Part shown: positions 30,664 through 38,638 of the stretch, in pieces
Numbering within the stretch: the first letter of the stretch is position 1
How the letters are laid out: every line of letters starts with the position of its first letter
Assembly (NCBI GenBank): GCA_946804195.1
Contig: CAMPEU010000001.1
Location: 1 to 64,000 of the forward strand
DNA from: an uncultured Candidatus Saccharibacteria bacterium
Lineage (GTDB): Bacteria; Patescibacteriota; Saccharimonadia; Saccharimonadales; Saccharimonadaceae
Direction: 5' to 3'
Length of the DNA: 64,000 nt
The notes under the pieces: generated by a model
What the model saw: only the letters and a program-made list of their open reading frames with translations
Told to the model about the DNA's origin: nothing
Databases searched by the model: none
Made by a program: the position numbers and the translations under genes

Positions 30664-31791
30664 ATGAATAAGAGATTTAGAAATAATCCTAATACAACTG
30701 AGGTGAGGCAGAGAGGAAACAACCAAATGAGCCAAGCTCCAACAAAAACTACCGATGAACCGACAATAGTCGACATTGATAGTACAATTGAAGCGATTCT
30801 TGACGCCGTCGAACAAGAGCGAGAACGAGAAATCATTACTCGTCGTTTTGGTTTGTATGACCGCAAAGAGACTCTAGAACAAATCGGTGAGCTACTTGGT
30901 ATCACGAGAGAGCGTGTTCGCCAACTTGAAAAAGCAATCCTTATTCGCCTAAAGATCGCTAGTAGCGATGGTAAAATTCCCGCCGTTCAATCTGTTGAAA
31001 AAGCTCTCGTTCGCGAATTAAGCGAAATGGGGCGTCTCGCAACAGTTGCAGATTTGACCAATGCATTACTAGCCGACAAGGCAACACCGCTCACACGTTC
31101 ACGTGTCGCTTTCGCAGCAACACTCGCACCACGCCTCGCAGTTGTAAATGAAAACGATCATTACAAAAATGCCGTTGCTATCGCGGAGTATGGTGATGAA
31201 AAGAAAATCACAAAGCAAGTAGACGAAGTTGTTGCAGGTATTAAAAAGCATGGTGAGCCATTGACTATCGAGCAACTTCATGACCAGCTAAACCATGAAC
31301 ATCCATCACATGTACGGGCATTAGCTACTGTTAGCAAGCACCTGTCAAACCTCAAAGACCTTTGGGGACTCAACAAATGGCCAACAGTCAATCCAAAAAA
31401 CATCCGTGACAAAATCTATGTCATCCTCCTTGAAAAAGGATCTTCGATGCACTTTTCTGAAATTGCTGATTCTATCAAAGATAGTAGCTTTAGCCGCAAG
31501 AACGTTACAACACAAGCAATCCATAACGAGTTGATCAAAGATAAACGATTCGTGCTCATTGGTCGCGGTATCTATGCACTCGACAGCTGGGGTTATTCAA
31601 AGGGTACGGTCGCTGACACAATTTCAAAGATTCTCAAAAAGAGTGGTGAGCCCCTTCACCGTGATGAGATCGTCAAACGCGTACTCAAAAGTCGCCAAGT
31701 CAAAGAAACCACTATTCTATTGAATCTGCAAAGCAAGCCACAGTTCAAGCGTGTCGCCAAAGCGACATATACTCTTGCCGAAGAAAAATAG
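30664..31791 (+). CDS. Sigma-70 region-4-like protein with HARE-HTH (RpoE-delta-like) winged-helix repeats
   Basis: REREIITRRFGLYDRKETLEQIGELLGITRERVRQLEKAIL; later IRDKIYVILLEKGSSMHFSEIADSIKD; no region 2 visible. Confidence 0.85.
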   Translation: MNKRFRNNPNTTEVRQRGNNQMSQAPTKTTDEPTIVDIDSTIEAILDAVEQEREREIITRRFGLYDRKETLEQIGELLGITRERVRQLEKAILIRLKIASSDGKIPAVQSVEKALVRELSEMGRLATVADLTNALLADKATPLTRSRVAFAATLAPRLAVVNENDHYKNAVAIAEYGDEKKITKQVDEVVAGIKKHGEPLTIEQLHDQLNHEHPSHVRALATVSKHLSNLKDLWGLNKWPTVNPKNIRDKIYVILLEKGSSMHFSEIADSIKDSSFSRKNVTTQAIHNELIKDKRFVLIGRGIYALDSWGYSKGTVADTISKILKKSGEPLHRDEIVKRVLKSRQVKETTILLNLQSKPQFKRVAKATYTLAEEK

Positions 31792-31857
31792 CCTTCAACT
31801 CTCATGCATTAGTCGTGATAGCTTGTCAACAGGGGCGATTGATGGGACAATGTACTT

Positions 31858-34800
31858 ATGGAAATAATCGCCTGGATTATCAATTTAGCACTACAATGGT
31901 ACGTCTGGCTACCGGTCGTGTTGATTTTGGGATACCTAACATGGCGCAATTACCAACGCGTTGATGCTATTCGAGCGACCGAAAGCACCCTGTTAATCCT
32001 CGAAATCCCAAAGGCAAACGACAAAAAAGAACTCGCTGCCGAACAATTATTCGCTAGTTTGCATGGAATCCTACGTGATCGTGACGAACTCAAGCAATCT
32101 GGTGGAATTCAAGAACACCTCAGTTTTGAAATAGCATCTGTCAGCGGACAGATTCGTTTTTATGTTTGGGTACCGACCGCTCTTCGTAGTTTCGTTGAGG
32201 GGCAGATCTATTCACAATATCCAACTGTGCAAATTCACGAAGCCGAAGAAGACTACGTCTCGCATGAACGCCAACACAGCGTTATTTACTCTGGCGAAAT
32301 CACCTTAACCGATAGCGAATTTTTACCCATAAAGACATTCCAAAGCTTTGAGGTCGACCCGCTCGCTGGTATCACAGGCACATTGGCAAAACTCGAAACA
32401 ACGGGAGAGGAACTGTGGATCCAAGTACTCACGCGACCTATTGCTGACGAGTGGCATAAAGCCTCTGATAGCTGGATAAAAACAGTCAAAAACGGAGGTA
32501 GTCCCTTCGCATTTCTTTCTGATGGTCAAGGATTCGACGCCAAATGGCTACTAGGCCTACTTGAAGCTCTCTGGCGACCACCCGAGCAGGGTGTAGGTGG
32601 TAGCGGCGGTTCCTCAAAACCCGAAGTTTCAGAACGCAACAAAACTCGCATCTCCGAGGCAGAGACCAAGGCGACCAAACTTGGCTACCGCGTAAAGATT
32701 CGCGTTGCTTATCTGGGCGAGAGTCAAACAAATGCCAAACTACAAATGCAAGCACTTGTCGGAACATTTAAACAATACAACAGCACCAATTTGAACGGAT
32801 TCAAAGTAACCGGCACAAGTTTTCGCAAAGAAGACCTCGAAAAATACCGCTCCCGTTTGTTCGCGGACAAGGGGTATATCCTCAATATCGAAGAAGTTGC
32901 CAGTGTCTTTCACTTGCCGCACACAAACGTTGAAACACCAAATATTGTTTGGGCATCATCAAAGACAGCCGAACCGCCGTCGAAACTGCCGATTATCACC
33001 GGCGATGATGCGATCGATGAAAATATCAGTGCTTTCGGTCTAACGAACTTTCGTGGCATAAATCATCAATTCGGTATGTTGCGTAGTGACCGTTCACGTC
33101 ATGTCTACATCATTGGTCAAACTGGAGCGGGTAAGTCAGGTACGCTCGAGCTCTTTGCATTATCCGACATATATCATAACCATGGATACGCTATCATTGA
33201 TCCACATGGCGATTTTGCTATTAATAACATGCGTTTTATCCCAGCCGACAGACTAAAAGACGTCGTGTACTTCAACCCTGCCGATACAGCTTATCCACTA
33301 GGCTTTAATCCGTTAGAAATCATCGATCCCAACATGAAATCAAACATCAGCTCGGAAGTCATTGGCGTGCTAGAGCGTATGTTTAGCAATAGCTGGGGAC
33401 CTCGACTAGAATACATTTTGCGTTATACGATTCTGGCACTCCTGGATCGACCAAACGCCACAATGCTCGATATTACACGAATGCTCACCGACAAGAAATT
33501 CCGCAAGGAAACTCTATCCTACAGCCAAGACACTGTTGTTTTGCAATTTTGGAACGTCGAATTCAGTAGTTGGACCGAAAAGTTTCAGGCGGAAGCAATC
33601 GCACCAATCCTAAACAAGGTAGGTGCATTTACCGCCAATCCAATTATTCGTAACATTGTCGGTCAACCCAAATCCACATTTAATATCCGCGAGATGATGG
33701 ACGAGGGCAAGATACTGATAGTCAACCTATCGAAAGGACTACTGGGCGAAGATAACTCGAGCGTACTAGGTGCATTTTTGGTAACAAAAATTCAGTTGGC
33801 CGCCATGAGCCGTAGTGATATTCCTAGAATTGAAGATCGACGGCCATTCTATTTATATGTAGACGAGTTCCAAAACTTTGCGACGGATTCATTTGCTACT
33901 ATCTTGTCCGAGGCGCGTAAATACGGCCTAAACCTGACGGTTGCCAATCAATACATTTCACAAATGTCCGACACGGTTCGTGGGGCGGTATTTGGCAACG
34001 TCGGCACAATGATTAGCTTTCGTGTTTCTGCGGATGATGCGCCAATTCTCAGTAAACAATTCGAACCTCAATTTGAGCCAACCGATCTATTGCAAATGGC
34101 TAATCGAAACTTTGTCATTAATATGGTAATCAATGGAGAAAAGGCGCCAGCATTTAGTGCACGAACGCTACAGCTACCACCAATACAATCAGATAATACG
34201 GCGTTCATTGTCGAGAACACCCGGACTAATTACAGCCGTACTCGCGAGGATATCGAGAGATTTATTAATGAATCAATCCAGCCACCAGACTACTTGATGC
34301 GAAAGGGGCCAGGAAACCCTAGAGTCAAGCAATCCCAGCCACCTGAACAACAGGGGCCTACCCCCGTTGTCACCCCTGTCAGCGAAAATCCTCAGCCCCA
34401 ACAGCCCAATAGGCCAAAATTCGTTATCGAAACGCCACAGGGTGAAGCTGCCGTACAGACAGCAAACAAACCTACGCCCGTCAAAGAAACGCCTAGAGTA
34501 GAGAAGCCTGTGAAGCCTGCCGAAAAATCTGAAACAAAAGAGGTGAGTGCTGACGATCATAAAGATAAAGAAGCGGACACGCCCGCAAAGAGAAAACGAT
34601 CCCGAAGCCGTCGTCGCAAAAAAGATGATTCCGAAGATAATACAAACAACGAAAACAAGCCTGAAGAAAAAAAGAATGGTGAACCGCCTAAAAGTATAGT
34701 GCAGCCCAAACCGAAGGCAGCGCCTAAACAATCCGAAAAGACAGAGCATGTTAATGACCTCCTGAAGGTTAAGCATCACATATCAGAACAACCGGTGCCT

Positions 34801-34893
34801 CAACCACCTCAGCAACCCAAAGTTCAGCAACCAACCCCACCACCAAAGCCACGCCAAGACAACGACGATATGGGCCTCCTGCGAGTGCGCTAG
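31858..34893 (+). CDS. Type IV secretion/conjugation-type ATPase (VirD4/TraG-like) with disordered charged tail
   Basis: IIGQTGAGKSGTLELFAL, AIIDPHGDFAI, FYLYVDEFQNFATDSFATILSEARKYGLNLTVANQY. Confidence 0.88.
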   Translation: MEIIAWIINLALQWYVWLPVVLILGYLTWRNYQRVDAIRATESTLLILEIPKANDKKELAAEQLFASLHGILRDRDELKQSGGIQEHLSFEIASVSGQIRFYVWVPTALRSFVEGQIYSQYPTVQIHEAEEDYVSHERQHSVIYSGEITLTDSEFLPIKTFQSFEVDPLAGITGTLAKLETTGEELWIQVLTRPIADEWHKASDSWIKTVKNGGSPFAFLSDGQGFDAKWLLGLLEALWRPPEQGVGGSGGSSKPEVSERNKTRISEAETKATKLGYRVKIRVAYLGESQTNAKLQMQALVGTFKQYNSTNLNGFKVTGTSFRKEDLEKYRSRLFADKGYILNIEEVASVFHLPHTNVETPNIVWASSKTAEPPSKLPIITGDDAIDENISAFGLTNFRGINHQFGMLRSDRSRHVYIIGQTGAGKSGTLELFALSDIYHNHGYAIIDPHGDFAINNMRFIPADRLKDVVYFNPADTAYPLGFNPLEIIDPNMKSNISSEVIGVLERMFSNSWGPRLEYILRYTILALLDRPNATMLDITRMLTDKKFRKETLSYSQDTVVLQFWNVEFSSWTEKFQAEAIAPILNKVGAFTANPIIRNIVGQPKSTFNIREMMDEGKILIVNLSKGLLGEDNSSVLGAFLVTKIQLAAMSRSDIPRIEDRRPFYLYVDEFQNFATDSFATILSEARKYGLNLTVANQYISQMSDTVRGAVFGNVGTMISFRVSADDAPILSKQFEPQFEPTDLLQMANRNFVINMVINGEKAPAFSARTLQLPPIQSDNTAFIVENTRTNYSRTREDIERFINESIQPPDYLMRKGPGNPRVKQSQPPEQQGPTPVVTPVSENPQPQQPNRPKFVIETPQGEAAVQTANKPTPVKETPRVEKPVKPAEKSETKEVSADDHKDKEADTPAKRKRSRSRRRKKDDSEDNTNNENKPEEKKNGEPPKSIVQPKPKAAPKQSEKTEHVNDLLKVKHHISEQPVPQPPQQPKVQQPTPPPKPRQDNDDMGLLRVR

Positions 34894-36660: not shown

Positions 36661-36894
36661 ATGGATATTCTGTCAGACGGTGCGATCTATTCAGTATTCC
36701 ATGCAACAACGACCTGTCTCACGTGCAAAGATATCAACACCGATCATGAACGCAAGATACTGAATCAGCTCGATCTCGAGGATATATATTTAAATCCATC
36801 AAACAGTGCAATATTAGTCGCCGGCTTTCAAATGGCTATAACCAAGGGACTGCTTACCAACAATCAAATCTCTGTTGCTATAATAAACTCATGA
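36661..36894 (+). CDS. Hypothetical protein
   Basis: 77-aa ORF only. Confidence 0.3.
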   Translation: MDILSDGAIYSVFHATTTCLTCKDINTDHERKILNQLDLEDIYLNPSNSAILVAGFQMAITKGLLTNNQISVAIINS

Positions 36895-36950: not shown

Positions 36951-36970
36951 ATAGAACAAAAATAGAACAC
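36951..36970 (+). repeat. 20-bp direct repeat, left copy
   Basis: ATAGAACAAAAATAGAACAC, identical to 37643-37662. Confidence 0.9.
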
Positions 36971-36994
36971 TTGTTCAATCAATCCAGAAGATAT

Positions 36995-37061
36995 TTACAG
37001 GGGTGTGACCCCTGTAAGATTTTGTTCTAAATGGGCATATTACCCCTGTCGACCCCTGTAA
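36995..37061. repeat. ACCCCTGT(AA) iteron-like repeats
   Basis: One inverted copy (36995-37004) and three direct copies (37008-37017, 37042-37049, 37052-37061). Confidence 0.75.
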
Positions 37062-37642
37062 TGAGAAATCCACATAAAAACCGTAGAAAATAGTATGTAA
37101 CGTACGTATCGACCAAGCAAAGAAGAAAAGTGGAGCAATAAATAGGGCAACACAAAAAAAGTGGGCGAACCGAGCAGGAATCCGGCGGATCAACATGCAT
37201 ACACATTCATATCAGACATAGTGACTTTGGGTCGCACAATATATCTTTTACGACATTACATATGTAAACATAAGTTGATTCAGTATACGTCTTCTCCAGG
37301 TACAAATAGGGGGGTTGGTCTTGTACGCGCCGTGTAGCGTAGGTTTATGTTTGCACTTTCGTACATGCACACCGCACTGTTACTATACACATTACCATAC
37401 GCATTACTCATACCTATATGGTACCCAATTATCATTTACCACAACACCCCGCATATGTGTCGCATTTGACTTTTCTGAGAAAATTATGTGTTCTATATGT
37501 TTTCCACAGCTAGTGCACTAAATTTTTCACGCACGCCTGTCTCCTATTTTTCACGCGCCTCCCCTACTTTTCTGAGAACATTTGACATTTTGCAAAAAGT
37601 ATATGTTTATATAGTTTTTTTGAATATTGTAAATATATGAAA

Positions 37643-37662
37643 ATAGAACAAAAATAGAACAC
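37643..37662 (+). repeat. 20-bp direct repeat, right copy
   Basis: ATAGAACAAAAATAGAACAC. Confidence 0.9.
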
Positions 37663-37690: not shown

Positions 37691-38638
37691 CTATAATTTA
37701 TAGTACGATCGCCCCGACACGCGAACATCGATATACTTGGGTACTATGTTCTTTCGACTCAGGTAATCTACAGTCTTTTTCATATCCTCTATCTGCTCCC
37801 CTACTGGGCGATCTAATGACAACTTGATTGGATACGGATGCTTGGTTATACGTAGCTGTATTTGTCGGGTCATGTTCTTTGGGATAAGTGCTTGCTTGAC
37901 CGTGATATCAAAGGTTCGAGCCGTATCGACAGCCAATCCGACAAACCGCAAAAATTTACTGCTCGCAATCACCGTACCGGCAATCTGTGGCACACCGCTG
38001 TCATCGACAATATTGACCTTTGGTTCATCAAAATAATTGACCCGAAAAGGTATACCATTCTTGTCGACATAGTAGCGATCGGATCCAATTAACCAACTCG
38101 CAACTGGTTTACGAAACGTCAACTCGAACTTAGTCGAAGCAAAGCCTCCGGGTCCATATGAGGATACTTCGTCAACCTCGCCTACAACCTGCCTCAGATA
38201 CTCAGACAGTTGTTCCTTATTGGTTAGCGTGCGTAACCTCTCTTGCGGGCGCGATCCAAGATAGTCGGAAATAGCACTGGTGTACCTCTCGGTTTTCAAA
38301 AGAGAGCTATCGACATTCGCGGATGACACTTGAACGCGTGCTGAAAACTCATAAATAAACCAAGTCAAGGACGCAGCAACCAGGACAAAACTTACGAATA
38401 AACCCGCCAGATATCGTCGGTGTGCCGCCAAATGATGGCTATGCGCCCGTGGAGATTTCAGGCTGGCACCTAGCTCGCTGGCGCTACTAATGATCGGGGA
38501 CACACTACCAACTAGCGTCCGATTACGTCGAAATAACGCACGACCTTTCTCCTCTTGCTGACGCCGCTCCGTTACCGCATCATCCCTTTGCCGACGGCGT
38601 GGAATTGCATTGTCACGTTTTTTACGAGCCCACTTCAC
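37691..38638 (-). CDS. ftsQ: FtsQ/DivIB-like cell division protein
   Basis: Single TM, POTRA-like extracellular region, position at the dcw cluster end. Confidence 0.65.
   Translation of the reverse strand: MKWARKKRDNAIPRRRQRDDAVTERRQQEEKGRALFRRNRTLVGSVSPIISSASELGASLKSPRAHSHHLAAHRRYLAGLFVSFVLVAASLTWFIYEFSARVQVSSANVDSSLLKTERYTSAISDYLGSRPQERLRTLTNKEQLSEYLRQVVGEVDEVSSYGPGGFASTKFELTFRKPVASWLIGSDRYYVDKNGIPFRVNYFDEPKVNIVDDSGVPQIAGTVIASSKFLRFVGLAVDTARTFDITVKQALIPKNMTRQIQLRITKHPYPIKLSLDRPVGEQIEDMKKTVDYLSRKNIVPKYIDVRVSGRSYYKL

Follow-up and report, generated by a model that had tools for sequence, protein, structure and literature searches.

What does a noncoding segment of ~0.7 kb, lying between an ftsQ-like gene and an M16 peptidase gene and bounded by an exact direct repeat, do on the chromosome of a Saccharibacterium? 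The segment occupies positions 36951–37662 (no strand assigned) of the window, the whole stretch of 64,000 nucleotides analyzed here. Judged from its sequence, we give a probability of roughly 0.93 that it is the chromosome-dimer resolution (dif) site of this organism, embedded in a conserved module that would assemble into a nucleoprotein complex. This reading follows from features that were directly observed: the dif architecture, its conserved and nearly single-copy distribution, a single Xer-type recombinase, an FtsK gamma domain, and the convergence of gene orientation and AGGGGA motifs on the site. All dif sequence features that we tested were found, with the exception of proximity to the GC-skew switch.

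A bounded noncoding segment and its 24-bp core

The 20-bp direct repeat is exact at 36951–36970 and 37643–37662, as an earlier note on this DNA had claimed. When the segment was simulated 500 times under a first-order Markov model, no exact repeat exceeded 14 bp (the longest per run averaged 9.3), which places the observed repeat far beyond chance. No further copy of the 20-mer was found elsewhere in the 989-kb genome with up to three mismatches allowed. In DNA comparisons, similarity to congeners starts and stops at the repeats (one relative, for example, aligns to query positions 384–1093, corresponding to window positions 36951–37660), and conserved blocks span 36951 to 37662 in the alignment of nine congeners. 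The repeat is the end marker of a ~0.7-kb module of conserved boxes surrounding dif. The smaller elements described in the same note are likewise present, namely the inverted TGTTCTA copies (37023–37029 and 37488–37496), the hairpin and iterons at 36995–37061, the internal repeats (37469–37481/37566–37578, 37463–37470/37579–37586, and 37522–37532/37546–37556), and the 9-mer at 37500–37508. We also agree that the segment holds no plausible coding sequence, and we rejected a hidden gene, since open reading frames of at least 35 amino acids within it are short (the longest 73 and 68 residues) and unconserved. A 77-residue reading frame to the left of the module (36661–36894, + strand) is not conserved in the aligned congeners either.

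The earlier reading rested on the flanking repeats and overlooked the most conserved feature, a 24-bp core at 37231–37254 (GTCGCACAATATATCTTTTACGAC). When 60 relatives were searched at the DNA level, most of them matched a short stretch close to the center of the element, and alignment of relatives resolves the core as GTCGCACAA-TATATC-TTTTACGAC, which is invariant in nine of nine aligned congeners. On either side of a 6-bp middle spacer lie 9-bp arms that are imperfect inverted copies of each other (GTCGCACAA and GTCGTAAAA). Extended to a 28-bp frame (37229–37256, + strand), the site shares 16 of 28 positions in register with dif of E. coli, which is functional as 28 bp. The left, XerC-like arm (37229–37239, + strand) is an imperfect inverted repeat of the right, XerD-like arm (37246–37256, + strand; GTCGTAAAA when read on the other strand), and between them lies the spacer TATATC (37240–37245, no strand). 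The locus thus shows the dif layout of ~28 bp with two inverted arms and a 6-bp spacer, and the spacer of E. coli, TGTATA, is found in many relatives. The right arm deviates from the canonical XerD arm, which speaks against the dif reading.

We scanned the class with the pattern GTCGCACAA-N6-TTTTACGAC, leaving the spacer free and allowing up to two mismatches. The pattern occurs in 281 of 295 sampled genomes, mostly in one copy each, whereas a reversed control pattern gave only a handful of matches; the genome of the window contains one copy. Near-single copy number and conservation within the lineage, both expected of dif, are therefore observed. Exact matches are present in at least 120 stretches of public genomes, and among the matches listed, all that carry a group name belong to the Patescibacteria (Saccharibacteria, Nomura-, Kaiser-, Campbell-, Yonath-, Shapiro-, Berkel-, Doudna-, Moranii-, and Beckwithbacteria, and others). 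Across the 281 genomes the spacer varies while the arms are fixed, which fits arms bound by a recombinase.

The same pattern bears on a conserved noncoding RNA, including the long regulatory RNA proposed in the earlier note. Such an RNA would be noncoding and conserved in blocks, as the element is. However, the Rfam gathering scan of the whole window was empty, RNAalifold around the core returned four invariant pairs with zero covariation, and fixed arms around a variable 6-bp spacer fit binding by a recombinase. We consider an RNA scarcely credible.

Recombinase, FtsK, and convergence on the site

The genome of the window encodes one tyrosine recombinase (a single PF00589 match), a protein of ~302–309 amino acids whose gene lies on contig C17, whereas the dif site lies on C1. 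It resembles XerD, XerC, and archaeal XerA, but passes the NCBIfam cut-off of XerA only; that it scores under the XerC and XerD equivalog cut-offs is a second point against the dif reading. Its catalytic residues (R-K-HxxR-H-Y) are intact, and a cognate Xer protein is therefore encoded in the genome. The FtsK gamma domain (PF09397) was found in all five genomes tested. In E. coli, this domain recognizes KOPS and activates XerD (PMC5357621).

In G024, a relative assembled as a single contig, the cumulative curve of coding orientation reaches its maximum at 806776, which is 0.4 kb away from dif (807178), and AT skew has its peak at 802573. On the window contig, 87–88% of the coding sequence on both sides is oriented toward the site. 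To find guide motifs independent of gene direction, we tested k-mers of G024 within strata of gene orientation; the top 5-mer was GGGGA and the top 6-mer AGGGGA. AGGGGA, picked in G024, was then tested on other genomes. Copies pointing toward dif outnumber those pointing away by 88 to 30 in CP023991, by 51 to 18 in the sampled part of G032, and by 17 to 2 on the window contig, and this polarity holds also in the arc with opposite GC skew. The cumulative AGGGGA peak falls 276 bp from dif in G024, 343 bp in CP023991, and 6 kb in the partly sampled G032. GGGGG and other G-rich words show no AGGGGA-like convergence on dif. The module itself contains CTCCCCTACTTTTC (37559–37572, − strand) with a KOPS-like AGGGGA (an invariant TCCCCT) pointing at dif, in which CCCCTA is invariant in nine of nine congeners. 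An FtsK gamma domain and converging polar motifs, both expected of a dif system, are thus present, and AGGGGA is a candidate KOPS by sequence.

The site also keeps a fixed neighborhood. An ftsQ-like gene (37691–38638, − strand) marks the 3′ end of the dcw cluster and is followed by murG, ftsW, mraY, ftsI, and mraW. A Pfam search of its product gave no match, and its name rests on the position next to murG and ftsW. In 18 of 20 family loci, the ftsQ match opens between about +400 and +625 relative to dif, murG, ftsW, and mraY come next in many named loci, and the site is syntenic beside dcw across families. A gene for a sigma-70 region 4/HARE-HTH protein and one for a TrwB/TraG-like coupling ATPase are located on the other side (30664–34893); among the matches listed, homologues of these stand beside dif in 28–36 of 120 named loci.

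Mobile elements often exploit Xer sites, and the site described here might instead serve phage or mobile-element attachment, or DNA inversion in phase variation. Closely related sites indeed form inverted pairs around surface-protein modules in one relative, G120. On the other hand, the site is mostly single copy per genome and has no second copy in the genome of the window, its place beside dcw is fixed across families, and genes and KOPS-like motifs converge on it, which makes such a use very unlikely. The integrated mini-element envisaged earlier is unsupported on similar grounds: the repeat and the element have no second copy in the genome, the core is conserved phylum-wide, and its place beside the dcw cluster is syntenic in relatives.

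The sites in G120 deserve description in their own right. This genome contains ten dif-like sites. The extra ones (GTCGCACAA-N6-TTGTACGAC) form inverted pairs with identical spacers ~1.3 kb apart (L304:3861–5243 and L305:3672–4998) that flank two convergent C-terminal modules of Fib_succ_major-type proteins, and an open reading frame runs through one site of a pair. Proximity to contig ends, seen for most of the sites, is what one would expect of invertible loci. These loci look like an Xer-type surface-protein shufflon in Saccharibacteria.

Boxes of the flanking module

Each 20-bp repeat is a pair of T-boxes, TAGAACA-N4-TAGAACA, with 11-bp spacing. The left pair (36951–36970, + strand) and the right pair (37643–37662, + strand) have the same orientation, and the right one lies 28 bp past the ftsQ stop. 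Pairs are found in 17 of 19 relatives on either side, about −190 to −325 from the core on the left and about +320 to +460 on the right, against a background of 29 in 1062 windows of 500 bp. The repeats are conserved; outside this lineage, T-box pairs are not general. C-boxes (ACCCCTGT; 36995–37061, no strand) comprise an inverted pair at 36995–37017 and a tandem pair at about 37043–37061, the latter nearly invariant in congeners. On the + strand, the congener alignment further delineates AAGTTGATTCAGTATACGTC next to the dif core (37272–37291), AAATAGGGGGG (37304–37314), the boxes CACAACACCCC, CATTTGACTTTTC, and TTTTCCACAG (37440–37509), and the invariant TATAGTTTTTT (37610–37621); AATAGGGGGG, ATTTGACTTTTC, and CTCCCCTACTTTT likewise belong to the module.

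The GAAC-N7-GAAC spacing of the T-boxes resembles the LexA direct repeat of alphaproteobacteria. We rejected LexA as the binder, because good T-box pairs are confined to dif and none lies upstream of the genes for three LexA-type proteins of this lineage that were inspected. These proteins (L312, L313, and L314) are short (~130–158 amino acids) and consist of a DNA-binding domain, apparently without a peptidase domain. ArgR-type accessory proteins were likewise discarded as binders, as no ArgR homologue (Arg_repressor) was found in the five genomes tested.

A parallel for a recombination core with long flanking protein-binding DNA is the plasmid site cer, which requires about 180 bp together with PepA and ArgR (PMC5357621). 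In contrast to cer, the site described here is chromosomal, has predicted protein-binding boxes of unrelated sequence on both sides, and comes without an ArgR homologue in the five genomes tested.

With dif/XerCD of E. coli and most bacteria, the locus shares the single-copy 28-bp site with two arms and a 6-bp spacer, an Xer-family recombinase, an FtsK with a gamma domain, and polar G-rich motifs converging on the site. It differs in that a single recombinase stands in for the pair, the arms are more symmetric, and a ~0.7-kb conserved module, much longer than known chromosomal dif sites, flanks the core. A single Xer protein, as predicted here, acts in XerS/difSL of streptococci, XerH/difH of epsilonproteobacteria, and XerA/dif of archaea; the arms here differ from those systems. 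difSL and difH adjoin their xer genes and XerS and XerH are large (about 356 amino acids), whereas here site and gene lie on separate contigs and the recombinase is smaller. The recombinase is XerA-like by its NCBIfam cut-off, but archaeal XerA acts without FtsK, while FtsK with a gamma domain is present here.

Displacement from the GC-skew switch

In nine single-contig Saccharibacteria, whose assemblies were taken as closed, dif is found downstream of dnaA by 0.24–0.34 of the chromosome length (mean 0.30) and in no case near 0.5, which displaces it from the dnaA antipode by 16–26% of the chromosome. The GC-skew minimum of G024 (530.9 kb) is close to dnaA (521.6 kb) and places the origin near this gene, as published for another Saccharibacterium (PMC6031116). 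The GC-skew peak of G024, at 984789, lies 178 kb (17.5%) beyond dif, and the switch lies ~227 kb (22.6%) beyond dif in CP023991 and ~242 kb (about 21%) in G032, the latter two from partial sampling. Proximity to the GC-skew switch, the usual correlate of dif, is thus not seen in these three genomes (0.18–0.23 of the chromosome). That the site is neither at the switch nor opposite oriC, unlike nearly all described dif sites, counts against the dif reading. In a survey of 2,027 chromosomes, just 113 had dif displaced by over 5%, and the mean distance between GC switch and dif was 13 kb, whether or not the chromosome was symmetric (PMC6199493). The asymmetric chromosome of Pseudomonas aeruginosa PAO1-UW also has dif far from the oriC antipode, but its GC switch lies within 15 kb of dif (PMC6199493), whereas it is 178–243 kb off here, with KOPS-like motifs and gene orientation switching at dif. 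Nearness to the switch is, however, a correlate of dif and not its definition.

The earlier note had suggested a replication or segregation site. This suggestion stands in kind, given the evidence for a dif/Xer dimer-resolution site; a replication origin is unsupported. A DnaA-like box, iterons, and AT-rich stretches would suit an origin or a fork-arrest (Ter) site, TTTTCCACAG and iteron-like boxes are conserved, and the magnitude of GC skew falls at the site in G024. However, there is only a single DnaA-like box, the GC-skew minimum is at dnaA, 285 kb off, and the sign of the skew does not change across the site in G024 and CP023991. An origin or Ter site is slightly less probable still than another use of Xer; besides serving as dif, the locus may also act as a fork trap.

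By third-position skew, taken separately for each gene direction, the dif-to-switch arc of G024 is closer in composition to the arc before dif than to the one after the switch. In this arc of G024 (807–985 kb of C1) and its counterpart in CP023991 (540–762 kb), ~66–70% of the coding sequence points toward dif; if the switch is where replication ends, such genes would meet the forks head-on. Most simply, replication would normally terminate opposite oriC, and FtsK-guided segregation at dif. In the Pacebacteria chromosome OY282360 (partly masked, with no dnaA match), the skew changes sign roughly near its site, and the displacement may therefore be limited to Saccharibacteria.

From these features we infer recombination at dif, use of AGGGGA by FtsK, and a role for the boxes and their binder. 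Homologous recombination would occasionally leave the two sister chromosomes joined as a dimer. When the cell divides, AGGGGA motifs pointing at the locus from both sides would load and orient FtsK, which would pump DNA until both dif copies meet. The single Xer-type recombinase, occupying both arms of either copy, would then swap strands across the 6-bp spacer to yield monomers. The T-box pairs, the C-boxes, and the remaining boxes are probable targets of accessory proteins, which would wrap the site or bridge it; these may provide directionality or anchoring, or limit recombination to properly synapsed sites. More tentatively, and at slightly under even odds, we propose a stable separation, by about one-fifth of the chromosome, of the segregation terminus (dif, KOPS polarity, and gene orientation) from the replication terminus (the GC-skew switch opposite oriC), combined with a ~0.7-kb bipartite dif complex bridged or anchored by a dedicated protein binding TAGAACA pairs. 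To our knowledge, such a protein-bridged bipartite accessory architecture is not known for a chromosomal dif.

We found no earlier dif, single-Xer system, or KOPS candidate for Patescibacteria in the open-access literature. The locus would thus provide the first candidates for all three in this host-dependent, ultra-small group with reduced genomes; new are the dif assignment in Patescibacteria, the long flanking module, which hints at a putative terminus-binding protein, and the displacement from the GC-skew switch. The usual 13-kb distance between switch and dif (PMC6199493) ties strand composition to dif. Because the two lie apart here, one can test directly which forces, those of replication forks or those of FtsK-driven segregation, act on GC skew, on gene orientation, and on guide motifs.
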